DNA from: Eucommia ulmoides
Taxonomy: Eukaryota > Streptophyta > Magnoliopsida > Garryales > Eucommiaceae
Direction of reading: 5' to 3'
Assembly: GCA_016647705.1 (NCBI GenBank)
Contig: CM028327.1
Location: 44,533,114 to 44,597,113, forward strand
DNA length: 64,000 bases
Shown here: positions 3,049 through 46,035 of the stretch, piece by piece
How positions within the stretch are numbered: the first letter of the stretch is position 1
Layout of the letters: each line of letters begins with the position of its first letter
Made by a program: the position numbers and the translations under genes
The notes under the pieces: generated by a model
What the model was told of the DNA's origin: nothing
Database searches by the model: none
Seen by the model: only the letters and a program-made list of their open reading frames with translations

Positions 3049-3149
3049 CTCGCCTGTTCAAACAATTTTAGATGTACACTCAAACATGAAAGGTTATCGA
3101 CATAATATTTAGATATGAAACGGTTGCTCAACATTTCGTGTTTTACAAT

Positions 3150-3500: not shown

Positions 3501-5473
3501 AACTACGAGTGTTGCTATCAATTCCGAAGAACTCTTGAAGAACAAATTCTGTAGTGAACTCTTGCATTAGGTGTTTCTCTCTCTATAAATGCAAGACCCA
3601 CTACTTTCTCTCTCTAAAATTGCACAAATAAAATTCAACTTTCTGATCTAATTCCGTTTGCATGCCGATAACTATATCTTGTTAGAAGAACTTAGTTAAA
3701 TATCCAACCAGTAGCAAAATCAAATATCGAGAAATGGTCTTTGTTTTATGTTCCTAATTTTTGAAATAAGGAACACCATTTGAAACATGGAAGTGAATAA
3801 AAAACGAAACCTGTAACTAGTGTTTCTGCTCAACCACGCCCGCCATTCAATCTGTTGCCGTCGCCACCGAAATCGCTGCCGTCGCTGAAGTTTCTCCTAT
3901 CACTGAAGTGGCTGTCGTCGCCGCCGATTCGTCGCCGTCGTTACCGCCTGCCGGCGTGGGAATGTGTTTCGTGATTTAGGGCTTTTCCTATCACCGTCCT
4001 CACTTTCGCCCTCACCTCCTTTGCGATTTATGGCATGGAATATGGTAATAGCATTTTCAAAATCTTCCATTTTCATAGCTTCAAAGGTTTAATTGCTTGG
4101 ATTTGCCTTATTTAGCTTGATGCCATTTTCCAAAAATACCTAACTAGCAATTGCAGAAGCAAAGCCGCGCGTGAGTCGTTTGGATGTATAAATGGGTTTT
4201 TCTCAAAATTAAACTAATTGCTTGGGTGTTTAATGTTATGGGCTAAAGTGTTTGGGGCCCATTCAAATATCAATTGTATAATTAGATGTCTAATTAAAAA
4301 ATCCCTTTTTCTTTTATTTTTAATATAAAAATACATTTAAAAAAATGGCAAACCCTTTTTGCCATATTTGTTGAAGCACTCACTTTAAATTAGGTCTGAG
4401 ATATTTGATAAATGACACACTAAATTTGGCTTACTTGACAGAATGTTGGAAACTACAAGCACCCAAAAATCAATATTCAGAATAAGAACATCAATTTACA
4501 TGCTATTCATCACCAAATTACTGAACCCAAAATCAAATACTAAACCCCAGAAAGTATACCTTAGTGATAACCCACGCTCCTTAGTCAACAAGTGTGTATG
4601 AATTGTAACAATTTAGTAATTAAAATTAATTATATATAAATATGGAAATTATATTTTTGCCCACATATTTTGAGAAATTATTTTAAAAAATAATGTGCTC
4701 TCTCCCTCCCTTCCATTCTCTCTTATATTAACTAGATTAATATAATGTCTATACAATAATATCCCCAGGTTATGTGGTTCACAATTCTTCTTCCTTGGAA
4801 AAATCTCTACTGCAAGATAGTGGCTCAATTTATTAAATACTTTGTTAAATATATATAAATATGTGTGTATATATTTATTAATAAATCAGGCACTTATATT
4901 TTTAAAATAGATTTTTTTCATTAAAGGCCTGAATTAGTTTGAGGGGAATGAACCAATGAGATTGAATTATAGAATTTTTGAAGGGAAAAAATCCCGCCTA
5001 AATATTTTTCTCCCCCATTCAAAAAGCAGTTGACTTTAATTATACTTTGCACTCTTAATTAAGTTTTACATTTTTATTTAATTGTATTTTTTTTTTTAAT
5101 TATTCGTTATCTTTTTACAGTTATAAATTAGAAAAACAAAGTACGGCCTTTAGTCACAGTCACAGTTAATCCTTAATGCGTGTATGTATGTGTGTGTGTG
5201 TATATAGTATGCCTTAGTTTTTGAATGTTTATAGTTTGATCGTTGAGATGGCACCTAAACAAATAAAAGGTGGAGATCTGTTTTGAGAAAATAATTCAGA
5301 CGAAAAAAAAAATTGTTATTGTACCAAAAGGAAGACAAAGCTGGAGATCTTGTGAAACTACCCGTTTCTCGAATGCTTGCAATGCCTTGTAATTCTTATA
5401 TCATTTATTTTGGAAACAAAGAGAAGAAATGTCAATGATGTTAGCTCCATGTAGACGAAGAACACCAGGGTAT
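3501..5473. other. Intergenic, no gene recognised
   Basis: Mostly AT-rich. The stretch 3830-3970 is unusually GC-rich (repeated CGTCGCCGCCG-like words). On the minus strand it would lie in the 5' leader of the MULE transcript, so it may be part of that element. From 4000 to 5470 I see only AT-rich sequence and short TG/TA runs. Confidence 0.4.
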
Positions 5474-5771
5474 TGTTAGAATCCCACATTGAATTTGTGA
5501 GGCGTTTCAAAGTAGTCTATATATGAAAGGAGTTTCTCCACTTTGTACCATATGGTTTAAGTTGGAATCTCCAAACATGGTATCAAACCAAGGTTTGAGA
5601 AGTCTCTTTTTCGTCGCCGATTGTTAGAATACTTGTTTTGTCTCTTCTATTGTTTGATTGCATCTTGTGTAAGGCAGGGTTGCACTTAAGGGTGAGTTTT
5701 AGAATCTCGTATCGAATTTGTGAGGTTTTCCAAAATATTCTATATATGAAATTAATTATTCCACTACACCA
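5474..5771 (+). mobile_element. TRIM-type LTR element with a truncated 3' LTR
   Basis: The left LTR (5474-5577, 104 bp) begins TGTTAGAATCCCACATTG and ends CCAAACA. It is followed at once by TGGTATCAAACC, a near match to the TGGTATCAGAGC primer binding site complementary to initiator methionine tRNA. After about 120 bp with no coding capacity, a second LTR starts at about 5697 (TTTTAGAATCTCG...AATTTGTGAGG) and follows the first LTR for about 70 bp. It stops at 5755-5771, where the next element begins. LTRs near 100 bp and no genes define TRIMs. The truncation point is one proposed inversion breakpoint. Confidence 0.75.
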
Positions 5772-6303
5772 GGCCATCCAAACCATTGAGGGGCTTGTAC
5801 AGGAGAGGGAGAATGATATCCAACTGCTGGAAGATTACAAGAAGGAGGTGGATCGCGTGACCAGCGAGATGAGCCGTCTCTACGAGGAAAACGAGCGCAT
5901 GCGCGCGGAGAAGGAGGTCGCCGAGAAGAAGGCCAGGTGAGCCGAGCACGTGACTCGGACAAAACTTGAGGAGCTTCGGAGGAACCAAATGGGTGAGCTT
6001 GAGGAAGCCCGTGATGAGGCCCGGGCTAACGCGATCGCCCTGTACAAGCAAAGCGAAGAATTCACCAGGCTCCGGGACTACATCGCCGTCAGTGTGATCA
6101 GGCTCGATTTTCAAGGAGCGATCAACTCTTTGCACCAACAGTTCCCGAAGGTGGACCACACCAAGCTGACCCTCGAAATGACTAGCGAGGACCTCGCTGA
6201 AGCCCAGGCCAAGTAGGATGCCGAGCCGAGTCGACCCTCCGGAACACGCAAGGAGGAGACCGCGGAGAAGGCCGCCACCGAGCAGTCCACCAGCCCAGCG
6301 TGA
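5771..6303 (+). pseudogene. C-terminal half of the element's antisense gene (aORF)
   Basis: The frame opens after a splice-acceptor-like ACTACACCAG (exon from about 5772) and encodes a charged, coiled-coil-like protein with runs such as AIQTIEGLVQERENDIQL and EELRRNQMGELEEARDEA. It ends at a TGA near 6301. Two in-frame stops interrupt it: TGA at 5938-5940 and TAG near 6214. Coding direction is opposite to the LTR. GC content is far above the flanks. It looks like the C-terminal part of the gene whose N-terminal part is at 20340-22081. Additional antisense ORFs between pol and 3' LTR are described for Tat-lineage gypsy elements; the join between the two halves is inferred. Confidence 0.7.
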
Positions 6304-6689
6304 TCAGCCAACTTAGCTTTAATTACTTTTTTTTTTTTCTTTTTTCTTTTTTTGTTCGGCCTAGCACATAACGAGCTTGTAATTTGCGGGTGGTAGCCCC
6401 ACCACTTTTTTAAATTTGACTGACCTAAATATAATATTATTTTGCTCTTCTTTCTCTTGCGTTTGCTTTGTTTGATGGTTGCTGACGTCTTTAAAAAAGA
6501 AATTTTAATTTTTACAAATGGTAAAGGTTTGCTAAGCCGAGCTGGAGCACAACTCATGTGCCTAGCAATCCCTACAACCCTTGCCCCCCAGTTGACCAGG
6601 AGAGCTCGCACTCTTTCAAGCTGTGGTGGTCGATTGGATAATCTCTGACGGTCTTTTATGACTTGGTATTTATTAGTGGATGTGCTGCG

Positions 6690-7110
6690 GTCGGACACTT
6701 TGCCCCCCAGACGCCCAAGTTGGCCCATGCCATCCGGGCTTGCTTGGGGTCTTTGCTGGACAAGGCTCTTTGATTTTGCCCCTTGGACAGGGCTCGTTGA
6801 TTTTGCCCCCCAGACGCCCCAGTGGGCCTGTGTCATCCAAGCTTGCTTGGAGTCTCTTCCAGACAGGACTTTTTGATTTTGCCCCCTCGACAACCAAGTG
6901 AGCCCGTGAGAGTTGGGCTGTCTTGGTGTCTTACCAGACGGGGGATTTAGGTTGGTTGACACGCGGTAGATGGTGTTTTGTTCAAAATACAGGTTACTTT
7001 TCCCCCCAGACGATCAAGCTAGCTCGTCGAGAGCGAGCTATCGAGGTCGTCTTTTATGGGTGACCGGTACAATTTCACTACTTGTGCCGTTGATTTTGCC
7101 CCCAGATGAC
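6690..7110 (-). repeat. Tandem repeats each carrying a polypurine-tract-like motif
   Basis: Five to six diverged units start with a plus-strand phrase like TTGATTTTGCCCCCCAGACG (about 6697, 6773, 6800, 6875, 6992 and 7083). Full units run about 70-110 bp and continue with GGCTTGCTTGGGGTCTTTGC-like text. In element orientation each unit contains GGGGGGCAAA, very close to the polypurine tract GGGGGGCAAC next to the 3' LTR at 22511-22520. They sit between the gag start and the antisense gene. Confidence 0.7.
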
Positions 7111-7181
7111 TTAAGATCTTCTGCACATAAATGTGCGGTTAGCGGCCTGAGGCCGAGCCCGTGCCATCTGTCCATAAGAGA

Positions 7182-7463
7182 CTAGTGCTCGATCACCATA
7201 CTCTTGTGGGCGGACCCTCTCCTCAGCGACGTGGAGGTTCGGCCCCCTTCAACCGGGGGCGGAGGAATGCGGGAGAGGAGGATGTCGAAGTATTCCTGGA
7301 ACTTACCCAGCTGGCATTCCACGTTGTCAAGCCTGGCGGTATCGACGGCCCTGGACGCCTGGCCCGGGCAGAGTCCCTCATTACACCTTTCAGCGTCTGC
7401 ATCTTCTTCGTTGGTCACTCGGCGGGTAGTGGTCGTAGTTTTCAGCCTTGGTGCCCGCGACAT
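7182..7463 (-). pseudogene. Start of gag, truncated
   Basis: The ATG at 7463 begins a minus-strand reading frame (MSRAPRLKTTTTTRRVTN...) rich in acidic and basic residues, ending at 7182 after about 93 codons. It sits about 130 bp downstream of the primer binding site in the LTR's direction, where gag is expected. It is far shorter than a normal gag and is followed by tandem repeats instead of capsid, protease or RT. A short leader protein cannot be excluded. Confidence 0.55.
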
Positions 7464-7591
7464 ATCCTCACCGGGCTGTCTATTCACCAGGTGGCTTATG
7501 TTTTTTGATCGATGAGAATGGCCAAACCTTGTATTCATCAAACCTTAGCGAAGCAGGTAGCTGATGATTCAGATAAGGTTTTTAGTAGCGC

Positions 7592-7612
7592 TTCCCACAG
7601 ACGACGCCAAAC
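7592..7612 (-). other. Primer binding site
   Basis: Directly inside the LTR end, the minus strand reads TTTGGCGTCGTCTGTGGGAA. This resembles the TGGCGCCGTCTGTGGGAA-type primer binding sites of plant Ty3/gypsy elements. It fixes this LTR as the 5' LTR and the element's direction as minus. The tRNA partner is not assigned. Confidence 0.7.
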
Positions 7613-8451
7613 TGTTGGTGTCGGAATTTGGTCCAGCCAACAGTATGGTCTGAACACTCTCGAATTAAAGGTGAGAGGGGTATTACCCATGTTTCCTCAC
7701 GTGCTGTAGCCGAGTCGGAGGGCCGATCAGGCCTGAGAGATGGGTATTACCCATGTTTCCTCATGTGCTGTAGCCGAGTCGGAGGGCCGATCAGGCCTGA
7801 GAGATGGGTATTACCCATGTTTCCTCACATGCTGCAGCCGGGTTGAAAGGCCGATCAGGCCTGAGACCGAGCTTGGGTCTTGGTCTCTTTCTTAGCTCCT
7901 TGCCGTTGTCCGGGCCGAGCTCCTCGTTGTCACCTACACAAAGGACGGCAGGGTTTTTCCCGGTGTGTCCCCTCCAGTGTGAGAGTAAGAATCTGGGGAG
8001 AAATATAGATCGAAGAGTTACTGTTACCTCGACCTGTCTGACCGATCTGAGGCAAAGTCTTTCTCTGTAGAATGGTTTTCTCATTCCCTTAAAGTGTTGT
8101 AGAAGCCTCATATTTATAGGCGAGAGCGCGATTAACATAAACAAGATTTAGACCTTAAGCTCAGATTACCAGTAAGCAGTTAGGTGCGTGGGGGGCACGA
8201 CAGATTAGAGTTATGGACTTGTGCCCTGGGCCCATTACTGTTGACGGTGAGGCCGACGTCCGAACTGCCGAGGTGACGGGCCAGGTCAGTCCCAAGCGAG
8301 GAGGTCGGTCTGGGCACTCCGTCCTCCAGCGGGCTGTCGAACAGCGACCATCCCGGGCTGCCTGCACACTGGGACAGTATGAGCGATGGCGTCGTGGCGG
8401 ATAAGATCTTAGTGGCTGACATGTGGAGGAGGCCCGACTTTACTCACATCA
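7613..8451 (-). repeat. 5' LTR (839 bp)
   Basis: On the minus strand it begins TGATGTGAGTAAAGTCGGGCC-like and ends CGACACCAACA. It carries a TATA-type box (CCTATAAATATGAGG on minus, near 8105-8120). It aligns along its whole length with the LTR at 22521-23224, apart from two extra 64 bp units. The two LTRs show many substitutions and small indels, so the insertion is old. Confidence 0.85.
7681..7872. repeat. Three 64 bp tandem copies inside the LTR
   Basis: The phrase TATTACCCATGTTTCCTCA recurs at 7681, 7745 and 7809 with a regular 64 bp step, each followed by GGCCGATCAGGCCTGAGA. The sister LTR at 22521-23224 has a single unit (near 23100-23160), so the amplification happened in this LTR only, after insertion. 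Confidence 0.9.
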
Positions 8452-8513
8452 ATCTTATTTTGAAGTTGATCTGTATATTTTCTATTTACTCATTATTTAA
8501 TTAAGTTTACTTA

Positions 8514-10688
8514 GGGCATGTTTGATAAAAAATAAAATAAATAAGCACTTAAAACTGAGTAGATTAAGCACTTAATAAATTAAGTGTGTTTGATAAATGT
8601 AATAAAAATTACTTAATTGATTAAGCTAACTTAAAAATTAAGTGAAATATTAAGATTAAAATTCAGCAAAACCCTCCTAGCTTAATTTTTTTTTACAGAA
8701 AGCGCTCAAAAGTTTTCAAATTAAAAAAAAAAAAAAAAAAAAAATTGACCGTTTTGCCCTTAGGGGTGTAGGGCTACTTCGATCGTTTTGTCTCATTTTC
8801 ATCGTTGTGCTTGCAGAGTGGCGATATCAAACAAACAATGATTTGAGAAGAGAGGCGACGGTGGCGAGCTTAGAAGAGGAGTGGCGGCGGCGACGACGAG
8901 CTTAGAAGAAAGGCGGCGAATAGACAAAGCTTCAACAAGGTATGTTCTTCTTCCAATCTATAGTTTTTTGTTTCTTCAACTTTAAATTTCAACTCAAGAT
9001 CTGAATTGTTATCCCTATATTGTTTTGATGATGATTTATCAATCGTTTGAGATTATTTTGTTGGAATTGATTGTTGATTTTGCTCTTAACCTGCTCAAAT
9101 GTGCCTGATTTTACTGAAATTACTTCATTTTTCGTATCTCTTGTTATAAAATTCTAAAAATGCTTTCTTAGGGTTTTAAGAAAATGAAATGTGATCTGTA
9201 ACTTTTGCTTGAGATCTGAGATTTCTGTTATTTGATTTCTATTTTTTTGGCGAACATGAGTTCCATTAGTTTAACCAGTATGTTCGGAAAAAAAATAAAA
9301 TCTTTTGTATGCAAATACTGAATGGGAGTGGTGAATTGAACTGATTATATTCTGAAATAAATAATTACATCATAGTTCTTGTTAGAAATTTGAAATCAGG
9401 TGATTTGAAATTTGAAATCAGGTGATGGGAATGGTGAATTGAACCGATTTCAAATATTCAGCAATCCTGCTATGTAATTTTGTTCTTTGTTATTTGTTTT
9501 TGGGTTGTCATAAACCGACATTTTTGTTCTTTGTAAATCCTATTGTGTAATCCTGCTGTCTAAATTTCAATTTTGCTATTTTTTTTGGTCGAAATCATGT
9601 GATTTTTCAACATGGTGATGCTTTATATGCTTCTATTTTGCACCTAATTCCTGACATTGATTCAGTTCATCTTCTCTACTCTCCCCCCATTTCACAGATT
9701 TTCTTAAGCTTTCTTGAAAAAGTCGCTTTCGATTTCCTCTCCACCTTGAAATTGTGTTCCTATATCGACATCCAGTGAGTTGTTTTATGGGTCAAGATGT
9801 TGATAAGTGGGAAGGGGGAAGATTTGGGTGACGTTCAATGGGATTGGAATGTTTGTTCAGGAGAAAACAGGTTGATAATTTGAATCGAACCAATCACGAT
9901 GGTCAAAAATTGGCCAAGACGCTCTTTGCTTTTGATCTCATTTCCATTGGTTAGTCATTCAAGTTCAATCTCCTCGTCTTTTGGAACATTTTCATATTCA
10001 TTTTGTTTTTTGATTCCGATTTAGAAATTGGTTGTTGTGTGTTCCTTTTCCGATTGTTTTCCTGCTTAACAATCGGGCGTATTGCCTCCAAATTTATACG
10101 TGTTAACCACAATGATCAATCAATACTAAGTTAGACCTAGAATCTCTAGTTTGAGCTCACGATTTCGATGTTCTTTACTATGGTTGAATTTATGCTTCGT
10201 CGATTATATTAGGAGTTGGATCAACCTTTGGAACTGGAGTATGCATACTTGTTGGAACAGTTGCCAGGGAGCTTACATGACCTGCTCTCACATTTTCGGC
10301 CTAATAGCTGGAATAGCTGCAGGGCTTTCGGCCCTTTGCTATGCTGAGCTTGCTTGTCGTTGTCCTTCTGCTGGAAGCGCCTATCACTATTCATATGTAT
10401 GTGTTGGAGAAGGGTGATCTCCATCTTTTTTGTTCATATGAAGTATGGTTGTGTTTGAACCTATTTGTTCTAGCTATGGAAGATGAAATGCTTGAGTTGA
10501 TGTTTTGTTATTACTTTTATAATTTTGATTTAAGGGTAATTATGTAAATTAAATAATTTTCGGCATTTAAATTTTGTACATATCAAATAAACAAAAAAAA
10601 TTCAGCACTTAAATTTTCAACACAATTTTATCAAACAACCTTCTTAAATTTTCAGTACTTAAAAATTAAATCGTTATCAAACAAGTCC
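8514..10688. mobile_element. Harbinger-like element carrying a captured gene fragment
   Basis: The left end GGGCATGTTTGATAA is matched by the inverted right end (GGACTTGTTTGATAAC on minus). Both are flanked by TTA, the 3 bp target duplication typical of PIF/Harbinger elements. Subterminal TGTTTGATAA and AAGCACTTAA words repeat on both arms. No transposase is present. The interior (8800-10430) looks like a plant gene 5' region, with a GC-rich leader at 8815-8940, a donor-like GGTATG at 8938, intronic sequence and then transporter exons. A related right end occurs alone at about 49010-49130. Confidence 0.7.
9870..10416 (+). pseudogene. Fragment of a cationic amino acid transporter (CAT) gene
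   Basis: Exon-like pieces match the first membrane segments of plant CAT (APC-family) transporters. At 9870-9949 one reads KLAKTLFAFDLISIG, followed by a GT donor. After an intron ending ATTAG at 10212 come [20 protein letters not shown] and, one frame over, [20 protein letters not shown], then [18 protein letters not shown]. Plant CATs read very similarly here ([26 protein letters not shown]). A TGA and a frameshift break the second exon near 10275-10300, and all later exons are missing. The retained intron shows capture from genomic DNA, not from mRNA. Confidence 0.8.
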
Positions 10689-10691
10689 TTA

Positions 10692-11699
10692 GTTTTTTTT
10701 TTTTTTTTTTTAACAAAAACATATTTTAATATTGTAATTTGATTAATATTTTAGGCATATTTTAATTACGCGAGAAAATAGGCGATGTAGTAGTTTTAAT
10801 TGTTTTAAATTCTTACCACCAAACACAAAAATATAAGAGAAAATTACTTGTTTTGACACCCTAAAGTTTAGGGATGGGTCTATTTGGATCTTTAGCTTTG
10901 TGAAATTGCACATTTGATACCTCTAGTTTCATATTTGTTTTAATTTCTCAAAATAAAAAATATTATTAATAATTTTGAACAAAAAATAGATTGTACTCAG
11001 CACGTAACCTTACAACGAGGATATTTTCAGTATTTGAATATTTTACTAAATTTAAGACATTTTCCTCTAATATTTCCCTAACAATGATTAAGATTTATCC
11101 CTCTCATTCTTCAAATAAATCTTATTAGGAAAAACGACTTCAATTTAGTGAAATGATAAAATAGCAAAAACATTTTTATTAGAAGATCATATGTTGAGTA
11201 CCACCTATTTTTTAGTCAAAAATCATATTGTTATAATTTTGTAAGATTGAAATAATTGTGAACCTTGAGAAACGAGTTACGCAAGGGAAATCTTAGGGAA
11301 TACGTTAACATCCACCCTCATTTGAGAAAAAATGATCAACATATAATATAAAAAAACTTCCAAATCCAATACGACCCCATTTCATTACTATTCTTTTCCC
11401 TAATTTTTGTCCCCACATCCAAAAATTTAGAATTAATGTACAAAAACAAATATGATAAACACATTTTTGTTCCCAAAAACATTGGGAGTAATTCCTGAAT
11501 TCTTTAAGAATCTGAGAAAAAAATATTGATTCTCGTTCATTTTCACAAAATTATTTTCACTATCACTCCACCGACAATCATACATTTAAAGTAAGAGAAA
11601 AAAAAAACAAATATTGCAACCAAATGTGTTTCCTGTTTTTGTTTCTTAAATTAAAAAAATAAATTTAAAATAATGATTAACATAATTTAACACTACAAG
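10692..11699. other. Intergenic, no gene recognised
   Basis: AT-rich sequence upstream of eIF3h. It contains poly-T and poly-A runs and low-complexity sequence. No coding or structured element can be supported. Confidence 0.5.
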
Positions 11700-11864
11700 T
11701 TTATATATTATTGGGCCGGCCCTATCGTATTTAACCCAGCCCACAACAGTAATCACATTCCTTCGCCCTTCACCAAATCGAACTTCTACTCCTCAGAGCA
11801 ACGAGTTTAGGGTTTCCAAGTGCCATTGTTTTCCTGATCACTCTGCTTCAAACTCCACATCTTC
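11700..11864 (+). promoter_or_regulatory. eIF3h promoter and 5' UTR with site II and telo-box motifs
   Basis: A GGGCC/GGCCC cluster (TTGGGCCGGCCC at 11711-11722) and AGCCCA near 11738 match site II elements bound by TCP factors. TTTAGGGTTT at 11806-11815 is the reverse of the telo-box AAACCCTAAA. The pair is characteristic of plant promoters for ribosomal protein and translation genes, which suits the downstream gene. No clear TATA box is seen. The transcription start is inferred to lie between 11740 and 11800. Confidence 0.6.
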
Positions 11865-14800
11865 ATGGCGAATCGTTCGTAGTCTATTCTCTCTCTTCTC
11901 TGTTGTTTTCTGTATATGTGGAATATGGATAATAGGATGTGAATTTCCTTAAATAACTGTCTGTTTGTGCTATATGCGTTTTGCTCAATGATTTTATGGT
12001 GCATTGGTTGCAGCGACGTCTCGATCGTTCCTTCAGGTGGCAGCTACGGAGGAGGTTGCTCAACCTCTCAGAGTTGTTCAGATGGAGGGACTGGTATTCT
12101 TCTTAACTTTTATGAAGTTTATGTATTGATTGAATAGCTATTTATATTTTTGTGCAATTGTGATGGTGTTTGGATGTTACATGGTGAATCTTAATCAGTT
12201 CTCAGCCATGAAAGGCCGATTGGCATGCTAAACATTTTTGTTATTGGATTTCCGAAAGAGCAGGGGTGATTAAATTTAATTGGATAATCTCCTTTTCTGA
12301 AGTGCTTTTCAGTGTTCATTGTTTTTGAGGGAATTGATTAATCAAAAACTTCCCCCTAGGAAACTTTAATATTCATATTTTTCTAATTAGTGTCTTAAAA
12401 CAGGTCATATTGAAGATAATCAAGCACTGCAAGGAGTTCTCTCCTGCCTTGGTTACTGGGCAACTTCTAGGTCTGGATGTTGGTAGCGTTCTCGAAGTCA
12501 CTAACTGTTTCCCCTTTCCGGTATGTACAATTAGGTTTCACTGCATCTTTCGTGATGTATTACACAAGTAATATTGAAGAAAGAAATTCTTATATGTCAT
12601 TATTATCATGTTCTCATCCGTTTGATGCTGTGTTTGTCAACCAATGATCGAACCGAATGATAGATTAGGGAGGAAGATGAGGAGATTGAAGCAGATGGTG
12701 CTAATTACCAGCTCGAGATGATGAGATGCTTGCGAGAGGTTAATGTTGACAACAACACTGTTGGATGGTAAGTTTACTGTTTAGTTATGTTATGAAGGAA
12801 TCTCAAATGAATAATCATAAGAATGGCATGCAAATAATTAGTTCAGTAATTCACAGTGTTTGGTCCTTGAGTTTCTCAGCTTTTTGCCCCCTCTTTACGG
12901 GGTCAGTTAATGTATTTTTCGTGCCTAGGCAAAAAATTGACTGAACTTATTTTGTGTATTTCATGTCATGTAACATTGTAACATAGGATTCTTTATGTTG
13001 TCGCTTACTTGGATGAGAGTGTTATGTGATTCTTTTCCAAAAATGTTGTCTTCTAATGATTTCGCTTTGTATGTAAGCTTGATTCCTCCTATAGTAGATA
13101 ATTTTTGTCAAAATACTTGATTTTCATGGGGGTTGCCATGTAACCTCACACATCGATACTAGGTCTAGTGAGGTTCTATTAGTCCCAGTATTATATGATT
13201 ACTAAGGAGTCTTTTCTTGAACATTTTCCAGGTATCAATCAACTCTACTCGGTTCCTTTCAGACTGTGGAACTGATTGAGACCTTCATGAATTACCAGGT
13301 TTTTATGAATTCTCTTTGTACAATGGCTATCAAATAGTGCTGTCAGTTTTCTAAAATTATGATGATCAGTTGATGTTCAACTGATCGTTGAAGAAATATA
13401 GGGATTTAACGAATTGACACTTATTTTTGGTTCACTGACATATTAATGCATTACATTTTTGGGTCTATAACTATATTCATTGACTCTCTTCTTTTTTGTG
13501 TGAAAGTGCTATTGAATGATTTTACTCATTTGCTATAGGTGTCTATAGTCTTGAGAAGGAAACTAGAATGCCTTGCCATCAGCTAACTGTTAATCTTGAA
13601 GAAATGCGTGCTACAATAATCGGCCTAATATCTAAATTGCACAAGAATGCTAGGCATCTGTACATGTTAAAAGATATGTAATTTTATATTGTACTAAAAT
13701 TAAATGAATGTTCCACTTTGTGTTCTTTTAGCTTTTGTTTTCCTATTCTATGAGTATGAAGGCTATTCGTTTCCGCTGGGATTGTGTTTTGCTTGGCCGA
13801 GAATGGAAATCACTAGACCTTTGGGCTCCTAGGATTTGACTTTTTGTGTTCAAGTCTTTTCTATGCTATTCGAGTATTGGAGATTTTTCATCTTTCTTCT
13901 TTTTAAAAGGCTTAGAAGTTACCTATAGAAAAGAATTAGAAGTATTTCAATGTCTTTTTACCAAAATGATGGAGATGTCTAAAATTGTACAAATTATCAG
14001 GGTAAAAAGCTTATGAGTCATACCATGAAACTTTTGAAAGTGTAATAGAATATAGAATAAGACATAAGACGAGTATAAAAGTGACTCAATTTAAATTTAT
14101 GCCTAACCAAAAACCTTGGAAGCCATATATACTTAGGAGATTGATTTAGAAATATAGGGAAAGGAAGAACGATTTGCATATGTTTTTTGTGAACTTGGAA
14201 AAAACTTAAGATCGGGTACCTAATAAAGTTTGTGGTCAATTTTGGAAAAGAACAGGCATTTAATGATTATATTAAGGTGGTTAAGGACATCTATGAAGGT
14301 ATAGTTATTAGTGTTCGAACTGTAGGAGGTGATACTTGTGCCTATCCAATTAACATAGGTTTGCATCAAGGATTATCTTTCAATTCGTGCTTCTTCATTT
14401 TCGTGATGGATGAATTGACGAAATATATTCAAGATGGGATACCATAGAATATGTTGTTTGTGGATGAGATAGTAATAGTTGATGAACTAGAAGAAATCTG
14501 AACATTAAGATAGAACGTTGGATGTAAGCATTATAATCTAATGGATTAAAGATCAATAGAACTAAGGCATAATACATGCATTGCATTTTTTTTTTTGCAA
14601 TACTCAGGAAGATGATGACATGGTAAAAATTGAAGATTGAGGTAAGTTTAGATACTTAGGTGCTATACTTTAGGGGAATGGATAATCGAGGAGGATATTA
14701 CACACAAAATTAAGGCAAGATAGTTGGGGTGATTTATGATTGTAGGGTACCATTGAAATTTAAAGGAAGGTTCTACAAAACCGCCAGTAGATCTTCAATT

Positions 14801-17775
14801 CTCTATGGTTCAGAATATTGGGTGGTGAACAAGTGGCATGTTTTGAAAGTAGGTGTAGCAAAGATGATGATGGAATTTGATTATTAGGGAGAGGTTAGGA
14901 AAACACCAATTGAAGATAAGATGAGAGAGAATCTTTTAAACTTGTTTGTACATGTGCATAGAAGACTTGAGGGCCAACCAATATGAAAATGTGATTCTAT
15001 TCAAGTGGAGGTTTGTCCAAGGGAGAGGTAAACCTAAGAAAACTTGGGATGAGACAATTGGGAACGATCTGATTGTTTCAAAGTTAACTGAGCAGATAGC
15101 CCTTGAACGATCTTTATGGTACGAAAGGATCATATATCCAACCATACTTAGTTGGGCGGGCTTTGTTTCGTGTGTGGGTGTGTGTGTGTGTGTGTGTATA
15201 ATTAAGTAATAGTTCTCAACTTAGAATACGTGTTATTTGATGCACCTTGGACACTGGAATTAAGTATATCATTTTTACAAGTCAGTTGTATTAAAAACCT
15301 GCCAAGGGGGAGAGATATTCCTATGTGGAAAGGCAAACTCACTACGAAAACACAGCTCTAGGAAGTCAAAACAAACAAAACTATTTGGAGGATCTACCAC
15401 CTTTAACCGAAACATCATCATGTACAAATATGTCTGATTGATCATGACGATGGTGATCATTATTTTAAATTTAGTCTGTTTATTTATTCAAAAAATATTT
15501 GTCCTCCAGCAGTCAATCCACACGTTTGTCTCTGTTTTTTGTGCCCAACTTAATATTATTGTGGCTGCAGGAGAATATAAGACGGTGTGTATGCATCATT
15601 TATGATCCTTCAAGGTCCAATCAAGGCGTCTTAGCTCTCAAGGCGCTGAAGCTTTCTGATTCATTCATGGATCTTTACCGGAATAACAATTTTACTGGAG
15701 AAAAGTATGGGCTCTTTTCCATTCACTAAGAAATAAATAATGCGAAAGAACTATTTAATGGATTTTAATTTGCCCTATTACCCTTTACAGATTAAGAGAG
15801 AAGAATCTATCGTGGGTGGATATCTTTGAGGAGATACCTGTATGCATCTGATGCCCTACTCTCCATTCTTTCAACATAATGCTTCTTTGTTTTTATGTTG
15901 TGGAAGGTTACAAGCTTCCCGTTTCCTGAAACCAACTCATGTTTATTAAATACATCAAACAAACTTTCCCAAATGGATCCCAAGTTTTCTGAATATGAAG
16001 TTTTTGGGAAGTACAGAGTGATGTTAATAAATATGTTCCTATTTTGGTTTAGGCTTTTATGTTACTTGTATTTTTGACAGATAAAGGTTTCAAACTCGGC
16101 TCTTATCAGTGCCTTCATGACCGAGCTTGAAGCTGACACACCCGTCACCCAGGTAAGTCATAATCCCGCTATCTGGAGGTAAGCAGTTACTCAAACATCA
16201 TATAAACTTCAACATCTTATTTTATTTCTGTACGGCAGTGCGATTACGATAGACTCCAATTGTCAACGAATCCAATTCTGGAGAGGAATGTTGAGTTTTT
16301 GATTGAATGCATGGATGACTTATCAATGGAACAACAAAAGGTTAGTTTTTCTTTCCTTCCCCTTTTGGGCTTTCTTTTACTAGTATGAATTGGTGTGGTT
16401 GAGACAACAAAAACACTTGTTCTGTTTCCAGTTCCAATTCTATTATCGGAACCTCTCACGTCAGCAAGCTCAGCAGCAAACATGGCTTCAAAAAAGAAGG
16501 TACTTCCCCTTTCCTCTTATGCCTCATTTGGATTGAGAGAAAATAAAGAATTTGATTTTTTTTTTTTTTTTTTCTTAACTTGGTTCATGTGTATGTTTTC
16601 TTTAGGGCTGAGAACATGGCAAGGAAAGCTGCAGGAGAAGAGCCATTGCCCGAAGAGGATCCAACAAACCCCATCTTTAAGCCACTCCCGGAACCCTCAC
16701 GTTTGGATAGCTTTCTCATAACCAATCAAATGGGCAACTACTGCAACCAAATCAATGGGTACGTTCCAATCTCTTTTGACACTTAGCACCCTTGAAGTTT
16801 GACCATTATCTCATTCTGGTCCCATTCTACTTTTTGACTGCAAACGGTCATGTGGCATGCATCTAACTGTTTTTAAGGGATTTAATGGATACTCTCAGCC
16901 TCATCCCTTCCTTCACCCCCATCCGCATTTTTCTTCCAAAGCTACACACACATATATATGTTTATTCCTGTGTGTTTGGACATGATTGTTTACCATAAAA
17001 ATTATAACGCGGAGAATGATTTGGACTAAATTGGGATGATTAAGAAACTTGAGGGTATTATGTGTTCAAATTAAAACCATAAGAACCAAAATGAGATAGT
17101 AGTCAAACTTCAAGGGTGCAAATTGTTAAAAACCTTACTCAAAATGAAATATTAGTCCTTACTTATTATTATGATTCTTGCATTAATGAGATCGGTTCGA
17201 ATGATATTCATTTTAAGAGCAATTTCCTTTCTCATAATTACTAGTTTCTTTGGATGGAGCATAATTAGTATTTAGTTGTCTTACCCGTCAATGTTAATAT
17301 AATTGGAGAAATTAGTAGATTGTCCTTTAAACAAGTCACTTAAATTTTTTATACTTGGATTTCTTCTTATTTTTTTATTTTTTAATCTTTCAGCTAACAT
17401 CAACTACATTAATTGATTGAAGTTATGAGTTAATTGATATGATGTTCTAGTTGATATTACCTAAATTATTGGCAAGGACAAAAAAATAAGTTGCTTTGAA
17501 CAAAAAAATTGAAAATCCAAAAAATGAGTATTATACTAAGAACCCCTTAATAATTTTGGTGGCCTTGGTTATTTTTAATGTTTTTATCTCTGTTTTTTAA
17601 TTACCTAAAAACATATAGCAGAAAGTAAGAAAAATTATAAAAAAAAAAATTATTTCCATTTTGTTCCTAGTTCTTTAGAACAATTTTTGGGGAGGTGAAC
17701 ATCATTTTTTTTGTTGTAATGGAAACAAAAAAAAAATAGCATAAACACTAAAATGGCCACCTTAGAGAAGAATCC

Positions 17776-17813
<38 letters not shown>

Positions 17814-18285
17814 ATCCCCGTGCTCTAATTTATAAGTAATATAATTTTATTTGAAGTTAGGTTTGAATTTTTGTCCAATATATTTTGAGGCATGTTGTTA
17901 GTTTGTTAGAGATATTGTAGGATCTTGAATTTAATGATGAATGCATAAGGCCGAGGTGAGAAGTGTGTCCTTAAGATCACCCAAGAAGGGGATTAGTCTA
18001 GGTGCACGAAAGTTGACCCGGATACACCTTACCGTAAAAAATAAAATAAAAAAATAGAAGAGATATATAAGATTATGAGAGTTTTAAATATTATTTGATC
18101 CCAATCGTTGGATTTAAAATTGATCCAACGATTGAAAATGTTTAAAGTATGAAATATATTTGAATCTGTGTTTTTTGTGGTGTAACATATAACGGAAATT
18201 TGATTGAGAATATGGATAATGCAGGGTTGCGGGGCAGAGTTTCAGCAGGTTGTATCTGATGAAGGCGTTGCATGATGAAAATTGA
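11865..18285 (+). CDS. TIF3H1: Eukaryotic translation initiation factor 3 subunit h (eIF3h)
   Basis: eIF3h is an MPN-domain subunit of the eIF3 complex, which helps the 40S ribosome recruit mRNA. In Arabidopsis it supports reinitiation after upstream ORFs. Twelve exons can be placed: 11865-11874, 12014-12093, 12404-12520, 12664-12767, 13232-13298, 15571-15704, 15791-15839, 16081-16152, 16239-16340, 16432-16499, 16606-16758 and 18225-18285. Phases agree throughout and sum to 1017 nt (338 residues; Arabidopsis has about 337). Key text: [57 protein letters not shown], and a last exon ending [14 protein letters not shown]. Exon 1 codes only for the first three residues plus one base, with donor GTTCGT, the weakest call in the model. 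The MPN domain is the non-catalytic kind (no JAMM metal site). Intron 5 (2.3 kb) holds a LINE remnant and intron 11 a MITE. No disabling change is visible. Confidence 0.95.
13990..15160 (+). mobile_element. LINE-type reverse transcriptase remnant in eIF3h intron 5
   Basis: Decayed coding on plus matches plant non-LTR reverse transcriptases in order: a KLMSHTMK-like start near 14010, [11 protein letters not shown] and FVNLEKT near 14150-14200, then [28 protein letters not shown] and [12 protein letters not shown] (14270-14440). Next come LFVDEIV (a degenerate YADD-type catalytic box) and a C-terminal [13 protein letters not shown] near 15025-15060. Stops and shifts occur throughout. No target duplication was located. 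It is in the same direction as eIF3h. Confidence 0.8.
16774..17131. mobile_element. Foldback MITE in eIF3h intron 11
   Basis: The left arm GCACCCTTGAAGTTTGACCA is repeated inverted at the right end (TCAAACTTCAAGGGTGC at about 17103-17119). The arms extend through TATCTCATTCTGGT versus its complement. It is about 350 bp with no coding capacity. Longer relatives with the same AAGTTTGACCAAAAT and CACTTTGGTCC wording lie at 31998-32476 and 36600-37066. Confidence 0.75.
17776..17811. repeat. (CA)n microsatellite
   Basis: An uninterrupted run of about 16 CA units in eIF3h intron 11, followed by GAGA. Confidence 0.95.
17935..18055. mobile_element. Possible SINE tail in eIF3h intron 11
   Basis: The phrase TTAGTCTAGGTGCACGAAAG, followed by TTGACCCGGATACACCTTACCGT and an A-rich tail, resembles the 3' part of plant SINEs. 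There is no clear A box or B box upstream, so only a tail is proposed. Confidence 0.35.
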
Positions 18286-18894
18286 TGCAATCTCCCTCTC
18301 ATCCTTTGAAGCTTTGATTGCATTTTTATTTTGTTTCTTTTTTTAAATTTTAATTTTATTTACCTTGATGTCCTTATTTCTAGTTAGATTTCTCCGGAGC
18401 AAAAAAAATGTAAAACAAAATTTTGATCAAATCTAATTTGAGTAATGCTTGTGGAATTTGATTGAATTTTAGTCTATTTCATCAAATAGCTTACATGGAG
18501 AGAATGTGTTTTTTATATTCATGGTACTTTTTTCATGTAATAATTTTTGTATTTTTGATTTAGACTCAGAAAAATTATTGTATTGTGAGGGGTGGATGAA
18601 TTAAAATTTTACTTTTATTTTTCAAAAATCTTTTAAAAAATGCAATAATCTAAATGAATGGAAAATTGTACTTTTCATCCTCAAAATTTGAGATGAGTGT
18701 CTAATTGGGCATAAAAAATAACACATTTTTAGTTTAATTTTTAATGGATGAAAATGTGCACGTGGTTTACACCTGATATTAATTTATTGAGTAATTTTCT
18801 CACTTTAGGTAGAACTAATCACGTGGATAATTTAAACAGTTATAAAAAATTTAAGGTATTTGTGTGACAAGTTTATTATTTTATCTTTAACTTT

Positions 18895-19255
18895 AAAAAA
18901 GTCGCACACACAATTATAATTTATGTTTTAGTCCCGCCTTAAAAAAAGACAAAAAATTTAATACACGTGCTGCATTCTCGCAGTTACATGTATCTAATTT
19001 GTATGTAAAATATTTGTTAAATATAATAAATATTACATGACTACATGAAATATAATTACTTGTATTTTGTAATATGTTACTAATATTATATAGGTACATG
19101 TAACTAATATTATAAAAATGTGAGCACATGCAAGACTAATACACAAGCAAAAATCAATTTAAGAGACTAAATCAAAAATTGTGTTTTAAATGAGATTAAT
19201 AACATATTACACCCGTTATTTAGGACTACTCACCAATTATCCTATAAGGAAAATT
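18895..19255 (-). mobile_element. AT-rich repeat related to 28785-29330
   Basis: On the minus strand it shares with 28785-29330 a GGATAATT...TAGTCC start, a CTTGTGTATTAGTC(T/C)TGCATGTG core and internal short repeats of the type AATATTAGTTACATGTA. It ends near a GCGGGACTAAAACA / GCGAGATTAAAACA phrase. Two related copies in opposite orientation suggest a small mobile element with internal tandem repeats. No coding capacity. Confidence 0.5.
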
Positions 19256-19489
19256 TGGTGATAGGTCCCATTTCATAAAACTATCACTTTGCGGGTCCTG
19301 TAACAGTGATTTTTTAATATATAGTTTAATCCTTAAAAAGTGATTTTTTTGAGTCTTAAGATCTCTCAACAACATTTCCAACCTAAACTTCATGTTCAAA
19401 AGTATAATTTCATTACAAATGAGTTAGAAAAAACGGAAAAAAACGCGCGTAAAAAAAAAAAGGAAAAGAAAAATATAAAGGAAAAACAA
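19256..19489. other. Unassigned AT-rich spacer
   Basis: Nothing recognisable apart from an A-rich stretch at 19440-19490. Confidence 0.4.
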
Positions 19490-19850
19490 ATGCAAACCAG
19501 CGGTAGCTTCATTGCCGGAAACACGTCCTCCTTCGGGTACTCCTCCATGCTCCGGTCTACGCACTCCAACCCATTTCCTTCCTGCAGCATAACCCTCACG
19601 TGGTCACTCACTACCACCGCGTTGTCTTCCCATCGGCCTTCGACCGGTGACGAGCTCGAGGACCAGCAAGCCGAATCCGTAGACGTCGCACTTCTCGTTC
19701 ACGCTCTGGCTCCGGTGCCTCGAAGCCTTGCACGCTGTGAAACCTGTTGTTGACCGCTACGTGTTCGTCGAAATGCGCCAGAAGCCTGACGAGCCTGAAA
19801 TCCGATGTTTTAGGGCTGAGATCCTTCGTCGCAAGGTAAATAAGGTTAGT
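19490..19850 (-). pseudogene. Receptor-like kinase C-lobe fragment
   Basis: The minus strand reads the end of a plant LRR receptor-like kinase domain in three frames. In order these are DLSPKTSDFRLVRLLAHFDE (subdomain VII, normally DFGLARLL), HSVQGFEAPE (normally YMAPE), NEKCDVYGFGLLVLELVTGR (subdomain IX) and VVVSDHVRVMLQEGNGLECV. The closest wording I know is in the IRK/PXC2 group. The DFG-type glycine is replaced, at least two frameshifts separate the blocks, and the rest of the kinase, membrane span and LRRs are absent. GC content is well above the flanks. Confidence 0.75.
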
Positions 19851-19957
19851 TATTTCTTGCCTTCATCTTCGAATTTCGAAACCATCATTATATCCAAAAG
19901 GAAAATGGCTAAGAAAATCAAGGAGATATCCACATCTTTGGAATTAATTAACAGCTG
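19805..19957 (+). pseudogene. NLR coiled-coil domain fragment
   Basis: The plus-strand frame AEILRRKVNKVSYFLPSSSN, continuing KMAKKIKEISTSLELIN, matches the end of the Rx-type coiled-coil domain of plant NLR proteins. It parallels RRKVKKVTTFMPSSSKSS and GEKIKKRLASLKKINEQA of the NLR at 45.2-45.8 kb. It stops at 19958 and lacks any NB-ARC. It abuts the kinase fragment in opposite orientation, sharing a few bases near 19820-19840. Confidence 0.65.
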
Positions 19958-19965
19958 AAGATGAA

Positions 19966-20325
19966 GCAATACCTTGTACTTGCAAAAGAAAGCTAGTGAG
20001 TTGTTTCTTCATGTTTGTGTCGTTTGATTAACGTTCGTGTATTTTATTTTTTGTTTTGATAAAATATTATGATCCCAAAATTTTGTTCTAAAATATGAAA
20101 TTGTTAAAAAAGAAAAAAAACTGAAATTATTGATCAATTTAGAAATTCCTGGATCTTAGATGGACAATAATGATGTTTTTTTCTTTTATGTCCATTCGAG
20201 TTTTTATTCTTAGTTTCTTTTTGAAAGAACATAAGCATGTAATAACTCTTAGGAGATTCGGCCTCCAGCGAGGCAAACAATGATTGCACGGTCAACAATA
20301 ATATTGTTAAATAAAAGTTTCCCAA
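19966..20325. other. Unassigned sequence next to the proposed breakpoint
   Basis: AT-rich, with an open minus-strand frame (20325-20134, including SLFASLEAESPKSYYMLMFF) that I do not recognise. A GAATCTCCTAA phrase on minus near 20250 recalls the TRIM LTR end (GAATCTCCAAACA) but the match is too short to assign. Confidence 0.3.
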
Positions 20326-20339
20326 GTGCTAAACACTGA

Positions 20340-22081
20340 CCGGGGAGGATCGCTTACCGAGAACGTATGCCAATTCATGTCGGCGCAGAGCTTGGCATCT
20401 GACTTGTCGGCGAATCTCTTTCTGTCCGCCGGTGGCACCATTCGCATCACAAAATGCGTCAGTACGGTGGTGTTCTGCGTCGCTAATTGGTCGGGGCGGA
20501 GCCCGGTTCCGATGATTAATTTATCCGGTTATTCTCCACCCCTATGTGGTTGCTCTTCTTCTTGGGCCGAGGTGACAGGACAACTCTTCTTATTTCGGCC
20601 AGTCGGCACATCGGATGTCCCCACCTTCCTCTTCCCCTTGTCTTTTCTGATGAGTGGGGCTGGGTCTTCCTCGATGACCTCTTTTTGCTCGACCCGTGCA
20701 ACTACCGGGGTCTCAACCCCTCTCGGCATTGGGGTAGGTCCGACCTGACTGGCGGGTCCCATATCCTCGATCCTCGGTCTGGGCGGTGTGCTTTGGGCAG
20801 CCTGTCGAGAGTCCACGACTCTCTTTGCCATACGGGCTATCGCAGCCAGATCCATCACTGAAGAGCAAGCAAACATACAAATCCAATCAGCAGGAAGGAA
20901 AATAAATCAAGTTAAATAAAATGACTGGGACGAGCTCAACTCACTTACCGTTTTGCGACTCCGGGTTCAAGGTCGGCGCCGGTAGGAACGAGTTGCTCCA
21001 AAAGTAGATGTCGTGCAGACACGACGTGAGCAGATGATTGACATTTGTAAACAGCGTCCGAAGGATCACCTCCTTCTCTTGTAAGATCTCTGCGCTGGGC
21101 TGGCGTTTCCTCATCACTAAACGGAAAAAGAAGCTCGTTAGATCTAAAACTGAGGTGAGGGTAATGAGTTCCGAGCTGAAAAGGCTTACCCAGATCTCCC
21201 CAGTGCCTCTGGATCGGAAAATCAAACGACGGCTTCTTGTTGGACTCCCACCCGGTACCTCCCAAGAAAAAAAATCCCGGTTTCCAGTCTTTAATGGAGT
21301 CTGGGTAGCCCTTAAGGAACTTTTGCCGGGCTAATAGGTAAAATCAGCCCTTCCCGTCGGGCATGGCCTTCACCAAGAACAGTGTGTGAAATAGGTCGAG
21401 GGATGGCGTAATCCCCTCGGCCAGGTAGATGATATGAAATGACACGATCATGCGAATACTGTTGGGAGAGAGCTGTGACGGACACAGACCCAAATCCCAA
21501 CAAACCTCACTCACCTAGGGGTGGAGGAGAATTCGCAGCCCGGCCTGCAGTTGCTGGTCGTAAATTGCGATAAACCCCTCGGGTAGATCGCATGCTCGAT
21601 CGTCCAGCCTAGCAGCCCGGAGCACCACTGAGCTGGGGATCGCGTAATTATTATAGAGTTTACGGACCGCTTTCTCCGATAGCTCAGATTCTAGCCCCCA
21701 GACCAGAGCGCCCCGAGGAATAGTACAGGACAATCGACAGGAAGTCGAACTCACCTAGGGAGGACTCTTGGAAGTAAACGGCCTGGTAGCCGCAGAATCG
21801 CCGATGGAGCCTGCCTCGCGTCCCGTCCCCCAAGACCCACGGGGTGGACCGGCCGCAGGGAGTGCCCCTGCACTGATCTCACCCTGAGACTTCTCGGACG
21901 AAGATGTCCACTGAACAGAGGGCTCTTACCCACCTTTCGACCCGGAGGCTGGAAGAATAGTGAGGTTTGACTTCGTCGCAAACGAGTTAAGCTTTATTTG
22001 GACGCCTGGAGAGTACACGGCTATAACGTCTATTAAGGACGCGCTACTCCCCGACCAGCCGACCTCAGAAGTAGAAGACAT
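20340..22081 (-). pseudogene. N-terminal half of the element's antisense gene (gypsy-type aORF)
   Basis: The ATG at 22081 starts MSSTSEVGWSGSSASLIDVI. Downstream blocks match the family Pfam names 'putative gypsy type transposon' (Transposase_28): YAIPSSVVLRAARLDDRA with LPEGFIAIYDQQLQAGLR (21700-21520), then SPNSIRMIVSFHIIYLAEG (21480-21400) and WKPGFFFLGGTGWESNKKPS (21280-21220). Several introns have canonical sites on minus: donor GGTAAGCC at 21190 with acceptor CCGTTTAG at 21120; donor GGTAAGTG at 20948 with acceptor CTCTTCAG at 20868; donor GGTAAGCG at 20356, whose acceptor is missing here. At least one in-frame stop is present (after MPDGKG). Coding is antisense to the adjacent LTR. The C-terminal half appears to be at 5771-6303. 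Confidence 0.75.
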
Positions 22082-22159
22082 GAAGAAGAAGAAGAAGATG
22101 AAAATGGAAGAAAAGAAGACAAGGACAGGAAGAGTACCTTGCTCAGGAGGTCGGTGAGA

Positions 22160-22225
22160 GCTTTCGTGAAAATCTGGTGAGGAAATTTGGAGAGTGAGCC
22201 GTGTATTTATAGGATGCAGAGAAGT
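22160..22225 (-). promoter_or_regulatory. TATA region of the antisense gene
   Basis: On minus, CCTATAAATACACGG lies at about 22213-22199, roughly 120 bp upstream of the ATG at 22081. It is followed by a pyrimidine-rich leader ending in a TTC microsatellite (22110-22080). Spacing fits a plant core promoter. It lies inside the element, pointing away from the 3' LTR. Confidence 0.6.
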
Positions 22226-22504
22226 CAAAATGTCGCGTCGCATTGAACGGCTCGTAGAACCTCGGTTCCCGCGCTTCAGCCACGTGTCGGGCATCTGGAT
22301 GGACTGACAGTCTGATTTCCTCGAGAAGCCAAAAGGCGCATTCGACACGTTGGTCTAGCTTCCGGGAGACGCCAATGGACATGCCCGACCACTGACCAGT
22401 GGATATGCCTGATGCCACCAACCGCTCTCTTATTCGGATTGGTTGCTCACTCCGTGGGGCCTGACAGCTAAATCCTCAGCGTCTCATGTTTCATTTCCAC
22501 GCAA

Positions 22505-22520
22505 AGGCTTGGGGGGCAAC
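22505..22520 (+). other. Polypurine tract
   Basis: AGGCTTGGGGGGCAAC sits immediately before the LTR start TGATGTGGG at 22521. That is the position of the plus-strand primer for reverse transcription, and it identifies the following repeat as the 3' LTR. Confidence 0.75.
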
Positions 22521-23224
22521 TGATGTGGGTAAAGTCGGGCCTCCTCCACGTGTCAACCACTAAGGTCTTATCCGCGACGATGCCATTGCTCATACCATCC
22601 TAGTGTGCAGGCAGCCTGGGATGGTCGCTGTTTGACAGCCCGCTGGAGGAAGGGGTACCTAGACCGACCTCTTTGCTTGGGACCAACTTGGCCCGTCACC
22701 TCGGCAGTTCGGATGCCGGCCTCACCATCAACAGTAATGGGCCCAGGCCCATAGCTCTAATCCGCCGTGCCGCTCACGTGTCTGACTGCTTACTGGTAAT
22801 TTGAGTTTAAGGTCTTAATCTTGTTTATGTTAATCGCGCTCTTGCCTATAAATATGAGGTTTCTACAACACTTTAAGGGGACGAGAAAATCATTCTAGAG
22901 AGAGAGACTTTGTCTCAGATCGGTCAGACAAGTCGAGGTAACAGTAACTCTCCGACCTATATTTCTCCCTAGATTCTTACTTTCATATCGGAGGGGACAC
23001 GCTGGGAAAAACCTGGCCGTCCCTTGTGCAGGTGACAACGAGGAGCTCTGCTTGGACAACGACAAGGAGCTAGAAAGGAGACCAAGACCCGGGCTTGGTC
23101 TCAGGCCTGATCGGCCCTCTGACCCGGCTCTAGCACGTGAGGAAACAAGGGTAATACTCTTTTCACCCCTGATCTGAGAGTGTTCAGATCATACTGTTGG
23201 CTGGACCAAATTCTGACACCAACA
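22521..23224 (+). repeat. 3' LTR (704 bp)
   Basis: Begins TGATGTGGGTAAAGTCGGGC, ends GACACCAACA, and has a TATA-type box CCTATAAATATGAGG near 22846. It is the counterpart of the inverted LTR at 7613-8451, lacking that copy's two extra 64 bp units. Followed by AAGAT, the proposed target duplication. Confidence 0.88.
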
Positions 23225-24245
23225 AAGATAATTTCAACTTTTTTAAGGCACAAATTGATGAGGAAAAAATTCCTACATGCGAACCAGAGTGAAGGAAGAT
23301 AAAGAAACGAGTTGGACCTGAACAGAAAGCCTAACCCGAAAGAGGCAGCGCAATAGTGGGCATGGGCCGCTACCCTAATAGCCCACAAACAAGGTGTCTG
23401 GCCTACTAAGCGCAACCCAACCCCGCATTAGGCCTATTTAGGGCAGAAAAAGGCCACCAAAGCAGGGCCCAATCACCAAATCTAAAGGTAGTAGGTCAAC
23501 GTAACCATTATCTCACCTACCACCGCCTCCATGCACCTACACGATTGACGCTACTTTCTGTAATGGGAGCATAGGCTACGATTAAGGTGGCTGGTTATGG
23601 AACGTGGAGAAAATCATGGCGGGAATGGCTAACTAGAAGAACGACCTATATATACGACAATGAAGGATGTATCAAGGGATGTTGAAGGCTTAACTCTCTG
23701 TATACAATTTTCTATACACTGTTGTATTTTTACCCTCCATAGAGTAGTTTAATTCCAGAAGGGTTGTGTGTTGTGGAGTTTCCCGGCATGTGAGACCTTG
23801 GTTCTTGCATCGGATAAATTGTGGCAACATCGCAGAACCCCTGGACTTCTAATAATTAAGCAAAATGAGAATCCCTAGACACAATATGATAATAATATTA
23901 ACATGATAAAAATATTATTAAAATTTGAAATTTTTGTTTTAAAATGGCAAAAGAATGTGAAATACACGTGATAGTTTCTCATTTAAAATGTCACCATACA
24001 AGGTGATTGGACCAATTGAGGGAAAAAATGAAAATTTTAAGGTTCAATATGATGAAATTAAAAATAAGAGGTTAAAAACATTACTTGTCATAAGTATTGG
24101 TGTGAAAGTGTAATTTAATCAAATTCTGTGGGTGTTGGATTTGGTCATCACCGTCAGGTGATCCTATCACTCCTCCGTCAGCCTTTTTCCTCAAGTAGGA
24201 TCATACTTGTTAAAGGAACAATTACTTTTTCTCCCTCATACATAT
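23225..24245. other. Possible LTR remnant; otherwise intergenic
   Basis: 23280-23850 is less AT-rich and carries a promoter-like ACCTATATATACGACAATG near 23650 with downstream text typical of retroelement LTRs or leaders. No ends, PBS or coding were found. 23850-24245 is AT-rich sequence upstream of the bHLH gene. Confidence 0.35.
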
Positions 24246-45849: not shown

Positions 45850-46035
45850 TTTTTGTTTCTCACACAAAAACACACACAGAAAGAGCAAGAGAGATAGAGC
45901 AAGAAAGAGAGAGAGATTTGGATGAACGTGGTAGGTGCTTTTGCCCCAGGCTTGCTTTTATAGGCTGCATTTTCCTTTTCATTGAACTGCTTGGGAATTA
46001 CTTAATACAACGGGGGTTGGGGTATAGTTTGAATT

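Follow-up and report, generated by a model that had tools for sequence, protein, structure and literature searches.

Two parts of what looks like a single LTR element lie in opposite orientations on either side of an eIF3h gene in the genome of Eucommia ulmoides, and the question raised by this arrangement is whether one element was cut in two by an inversion that carried the gene with it, or whether the locus came about in some other way. The window is the whole stretch of DNA analysed, 64,000 nucleotides in length (C3:44533114-44597113); coordinates are window positions unless a contig is named, and the genome searched comprises 946.7 Mb in 391 contigs. An initial annotation had proposed that one LTR element was cut when about 14.5 kb of DNA, with eIF3h in it, was inverted, and this main interpretation is correct, to judge from halves that abut in relatives of the element and from an uninverted paralogous site that also lacks the second element described below. 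The segment from 5764 to 20258 (14,495 bp, no strand assigned), with eIF3h inside it, is on this evidence inverted, its breakpoints being placed by alignments of relatives and by the reciprocal joins. Three lines of evidence agree: the split LTR element with AAGAT at its outer ends, the tail of a TRIM at the right break, and the uninverted paralogous site.

Two halves of one LTR element

The part of the element to the left of eIF3h lies on the minus strand and consists of a 5' LTR of 839 bp containing three 64-bp tandem units (7613-8451) and an internal half (5764-7612) that holds the primer site, the start of gag and the C-terminal part of an antisense gene, which reads plus. The part to the right lies on the plus strand and consists of an internal half (20259-22520), holding the N-terminal part of the antisense gene on the minus strand with a TRP28 domain at 21344-21514, and a 3' LTR of 704 bp (22521-23224). 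The LTRs were delimited from the inverted pairs in the window, of which they form the longest found, and from their alignment, the start of which falls 2 bp within the 3' LTR (first TG at 22521); the internal halves were delimited from alignments of relatives and, for the 3' half, from Pfam. Outside the LTRs, in element orientation, are the same five bases that the initial annotation had recorded, AAGAT at 8452-8456 on the minus strand (ATCTT on plus) and AAGAT at 23225-23229 on the plus strand, and the chance that two random 5-mers from the window agree is 0.0021.

The two LTRs are also close relatives of one another. Apart from itself, the 5'-half LTR has its highest-scoring genome match in the 3'-half LTR (682 bits, the next being 631, with the best 40 of 1105 candidates scored), and a tree of 8 LTRs, which differ by 12-17%, pairs the two as sisters (support 0.979). 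Their alignment, which had been suggested as a means of dating the element, gives 88.0% identity over 702 aligned sites, with 75 transitions, 9 transversions and a K2P distance of 0.135, corresponding to about 5.2 million years at a substitution rate of 1.3e-8 or 9.6 million years at 7e-9. The age is rough because transitions dominate, and it would serve as an upper bound for the inversion, which is presumably younger than the element.

The two internal halves do not overlap, there being no significant shared sequence between them (best blastn E 0.63). Nineteen loci (L010-L028), drawn from 39 other copies in the same genome, were cut out for comparison, and in all 17 relatives with both halves inside the fetched flank the halves lie 1-26 bp apart, with a median of 8; they are therefore neighbouring parts of one element. 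Both ends fall within the limits set for the junction in 15 of the 19 loci; in two, L019 and L024, the flank fetched contains no match to the 5' half. The junction alignment contains eight bases that are present in relatives and missing here. The sequence at 23252-23831, starting about 22 bp past the element's target duplication, is a separate LTR-like repeat that belongs to another family and is probably a solo LTR. No paralogous site lacking the large LTR element came to light.

The breakpoints and a truncated TRIM

Matches to the 5' half stop exactly at 5764 in 13 of the 17 relatives holding both halves. The left break had been placed inside a TRIM LTR at about 5771; it does cut the second LTR of the TRIM, at 5764 instead. 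The right break, which had been placed at 20326-20340, lies 67-81 bp further left, at 20259. When the sequence from 20150 to 20900 was used as query (best 40 of 148 candidates scored, a copy on contig C12 counted once, counts by hand), 30 of the 39 other same-genome copies began to match at 20258-20261, and the 3' half of the element thus begins at about 20259; as a counterpoint, the remaining nine begin at 20250, 20263, 20268, 20270, 20284, 20297, 20312, 20319 and 20325.

TRIMs are short elements with two short LTRs, a primer site, no coding region and a target duplication. The sequence at 5474-5763 on the plus strand, delimited by genome matches, is presumably such an element, and resembles the class in its length of about 0.3 kb, its LTRs of about 104 bp, the putative primer site (by eye) that follows LTR1, and its 5-bp target duplication, differing in that here LTR2 is cut by the inversion, LTR1 occupying 5474-5577 and the truncated LTR2 approximately 5697-5763. 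The family is represented by at least 52 non-self matches among those listed, from 1605 first-look candidates. The left copy of the target duplication, GGTAT, is read directly at 5469-5473 (plus) and occurs once in a TRIM-free paralog.

If the inversion was a simple one, the remainder of LTR2 and a second copy of the TRIM duplication are to be expected, inverted, at the right break. Both are found there on the minus strand, a tail at 20247-20258 in which 11 of 13 bases (including the shared base 20259) equal the LTR1 tail, followed by GTTAT at 20242-20246. No other non-self site among the 127,974 window positions of both strands equals the tail match at 20259, and tail and duplication together (20242-20259) match at 15 of 18 bases, unique at that quality in 127,964 positions. 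The TCCTAA core of the tail is also present in 16 of 29 TRIM relatives (counted by hand). This agreement is tempered by a single mismatch between the two copies of the duplication. Of LTR2, about 25 bp have been lost (by eye). When the tail was sought at the right breakpoint of the initial annotation it was not found (p 0.10-0.47), because that breakpoint was wrong, and it became visible once the break was moved to about 20259.

Paralogous sites without the inversion

The host sequence to the left of the TRIM and the inversion (5202-5473, plus, here called W) has paralogs in which it runs on into the reverse complement of the sequence from 20241 leftwards (X'). The clearer of these, L074 (C3:44301331-44301785), lies about 237 kb from the window on the same contig and has neither the TRIM nor the inversion; W (219 identical among 254 aligned bases, gaps not counted) is followed by the reverse complement of X' (149 of 165) with no gap at the join. 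The score of the joined query, 250, is the sum of 142 and 108, and the gain across the join is 36, as against a maximum of 29 among 3000 random tails. A second site, L070 on contig C14, has the same order at lower identity, with a near-join gain of 19 against a maximum of 16.5 for 5000 random tails; over a longer stretch the result is less decisive, being matched by 6 of 1000 random tails and by 25 of 1000 shuffled ones. As a counterpoint, a copy on contig C7 (L036/L072; C7:627297-627807) carries W with the TRIM inserted at the identical position, followed by different sequence that is not X', and the TRIM may be older than the duplication that gave rise to this copy.

Both reciprocal joins thus restore ancestral adjacencies, the halves of the LTR element abutting in its relatives and W meeting the reverse complement of X' in the two paralogous sites. 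The assignment of the ancestral orientation would rest on these paralogs in the same genome and on the elements themselves.

A probable two-break inversion and its alternatives

The best explanation, of which we are very nearly certain, is that a TRIM and a Retand-type element were split by an end-joined inversion of the eIF3h segment. The two elements would have inserted about 14.5 kb apart, the Retand-type element as a copy with gag-pol deleted, and each generating a 5-bp target duplication. Later, two double-strand breaks, in LTR2 of the TRIM and within an antisense-gene exon, would have freed the eIF3h segment, which would then have been rejoined in reverse by end joining, at a cost of 8 bp from the LTR element and about 25 bp from LTR2 of the TRIM. 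Rejoining in this manner leaves the halves of each element mutually inverted, at opposite ends of the segment. The overlaps at the joins are 2 bp and 1 bp (by eye), and no inverted repeats at both 5764 and 20259 are found among the 25 listed of the 33 pairs in 4000-25000 or among all 24 pairs of at least 60 bp in the window. The short losses, the microhomology of 1-2 bp and the lack of a listed inverted repeat favour two-break end joining, a process marked by short losses, 0-2 bp of microhomology and no repeats at the breaks; the mark of a repeat-mediated event, inverted repeats at both breaks, is not seen among the pairs listed.

Of the alternatives, the one that survives best, though we consider it improbable, is a series of nested rearrangements, such as two overlapping inversions or a flip by way of templated repair. 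The 18 bp at 5751-5768, which span the left join, have an exact match at 676-693 (three matches within 3 mismatches, a result given by 0 of 100 shuffles), and this could represent a templated patch; elsewhere in the genome, moreover, NLR sequence is mixed with eIF3h fragments. A single inversion nevertheless accounts for the joins, and 24 of the 52 listed non-self TRIM matches extend to 5763 (counted by hand), so that the stretch is TRIM-like without a patch.

An error in which the segment was flipped during assembly is very unlikely. Inverted LTR arms of 88% identity near the segment ends speak for it, but neither break coincides with an LTR, no listed inverted repeat is present at both breaks, and the two LTRs can be told apart at 84 sites. 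A flipped contig would also not be expected to have lost 8 bp at one join and about 25 bp at the other.

We give almost no credence to the proposal that two members of the same family inserted independently in opposite orientation and were separately truncated, even though the family is abundant, as the number of LTR candidates attests, and its compared LTRs are only modestly diverged. Such insertions would have to share AAGAT by chance, to carry sister LTRs, and to retain non-overlapping halves that abut in every relative holding both, and the proposal is contradicted by the join of W and X' in the paralogs. Homologous recombination between inverted repeats, a common source of inversions where repeats abound, is equally hard to credit, since no listed inverted repeat covers 5764 and 20259 and, before the flip, the two LTRs faced the same way.

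The end-joined inversion has parallels in other systems. End-joining inversions in plants, both engineered and natural, are described in sections of a review (PMC10893937) as having junction deletions and sizes from about 0.1 kb to more than 100 Mb. The event described here is like them, as far as those sections go, in having two breaks on one chromosome, reverse rejoining and junction deletions; it is unlike them in that its two breaks each hit a transposable element, and the duplications of these elements, together with the paralogs, make it readable from one genome. Inversions of Drosophila attributed to ectopic recombination between Galileo elements, in the portion of that account considered (PMC2775673), likewise have elements at their breakpoints, whereas here no homologous element copies are present at the two breaks, and the elements are cut and act as markers. 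The inversions covered in excerpts of papers on maize and wheat (PMC2773423, PMC7156093) are far larger than this one of 14.5 kb.

The event is therefore an ordinary genome rearrangement, unusually well recorded. It shows that, where both breaks of an old, small inversion hit transposable elements, one assembly and no outgroup suffice to prove it, polarise it and locate it almost to the nucleotide, split halves, target duplications and a TRIM-free paralogous site being here in agreement. Scans of assemblies for inverted LTR pairs with common duplications and complementary halves should reveal more.

A deletion derivative of the Retand type

The antisense gene had been described as divided between the two halves, with its parts meeting at an intron marked by an orphan donor and an orphan acceptor. 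The division stands, as parts of the gene are present in both halves, but the intron does not: read from the rows of the junction alignment, the donor near 20356 and the former acceptor region near 20298, about 60 bp on, both lie in the 3' half, and an open frame in the relative L028 (2070-2576) crosses the break. The right break thus falls inside an exon of the gene.

At 21344-21514 on the minus strand, the right place and strand, the gene matches Transposase_28 (TRP28, PF04195) with an E-value of 1e-5 and 26.1 bits, just below the Pfam cut-off of 26.2. Ten other pieces of the element gave only sub-threshold Pfam matches, whereas one of three further pieces matched TRP28; a search of viral contigs yielded no relatives of two pieces of the antisense gene or of the LTR end. 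Retand elements, as characterised in part of a study of this lineage of Ty3/gypsy (PMC11963269), possess an antisense ORF with TRP28 between pol and the 3' LTR, LTRs of 315-1194 bp, a 5-bp target duplication, and gag-pol within an internal region of 7.4-12.9 kb. The element here has a TRP28 antisense gene (at a marginal score) upstream of the 3' LTR, LTRs of 839 and 704 bp, which are of Retand size, and a 5-bp duplication. In contrast to the lineage as that part of the study presents it, this copy is cut in two, its TRP28 match falls just under the cut-off, and its internal halves, which total 4.1 kb, lack gag-pol and contain no reverse transcriptase.

A relative on contig C7 (L072/L073) accounts for the difference in length. 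Compared with it, the leader matches to about 7113 and the region that follows pol matches from about 7112, these two being separated in C7 by about 7.5 kb, which places an internal deletion join at 7109-7113 on the minus strand. The gag start reported in the 5' half is therefore present, but it is fused at about 7112 to the post-pol region, with gag-pol deleted. The element can be described, from these comparisons, as an old, gag-pol-deleted Retand-type copy, a deletion derivative and not a complete member.

eIF3h and other sequences in and near the segment

The eIF3h gene was confirmed on the plus strand between the element halves, inside the inverted segment, its exons spanning 12007-18276 by tblastn with an Arabidopsis protein and by a Pfam match to eIF3h_C (E 1.6e-14). 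Matches to eIF3h elsewhere in the genome are fragments, and the copy in the window looks like the only complete one. It is conceivable, though very unlikely, that the flip was not neutral, in that it would have moved this apparently sole complete copy, in a region where the NLR genes are related to ones containing eIF3h pieces, to a new regulatory setting and been kept for altered eIF3h expression or for separation of the parent gene from those relatives.

Pieces of eIF3h occur amid NLR sequence, in sense with the NLR, at three places, L071 (C3:44090-44096k) and L068/L069 (C14:585-605k), which were compared with window positions 12633-12789, 16211-16443, 18329-18504 and 41501-45961. Identity is 93-96% for the exon 3 region and 83-90% for the other pieces, and each of the three exon-3 copies contains one TGA; they therefore have the look of scrambled captures and not of clean integrated domains, and no eIF3h was found among the listed matches to the literature on NLR integrated domains. 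Because the fragments on C14 and C3 are in sense with the NLR, they are uninformative on the orientation of the segment.

There was no support for the suggestion that genes resembling a cationic amino-acid transporter (CAT) and a bHLH factor were neighbours ancestrally, and it was set aside; the bHLH exon, searched in the same genome, matched only itself. The CAT-like sequence at 9600-10420, upstream of eIF3h, which from its likeness we take to be the first exons of such a transporter, is a fragment with stops, and the stretch 10130-10417 has no Pfam match. At 19491-19962 is a presumed receptor-kinase-like fragment, so named by likeness, that has no Pfam match and has relatives on C3 and C14, some of them near NLR sequence. 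Beyond the segment, the minus strand at 999-3057 holds the remains of a MULE transposase, with Pfam matches to MULE, Transposase_mut and SWIM for 999-2060 and the rest assigned by likeness.
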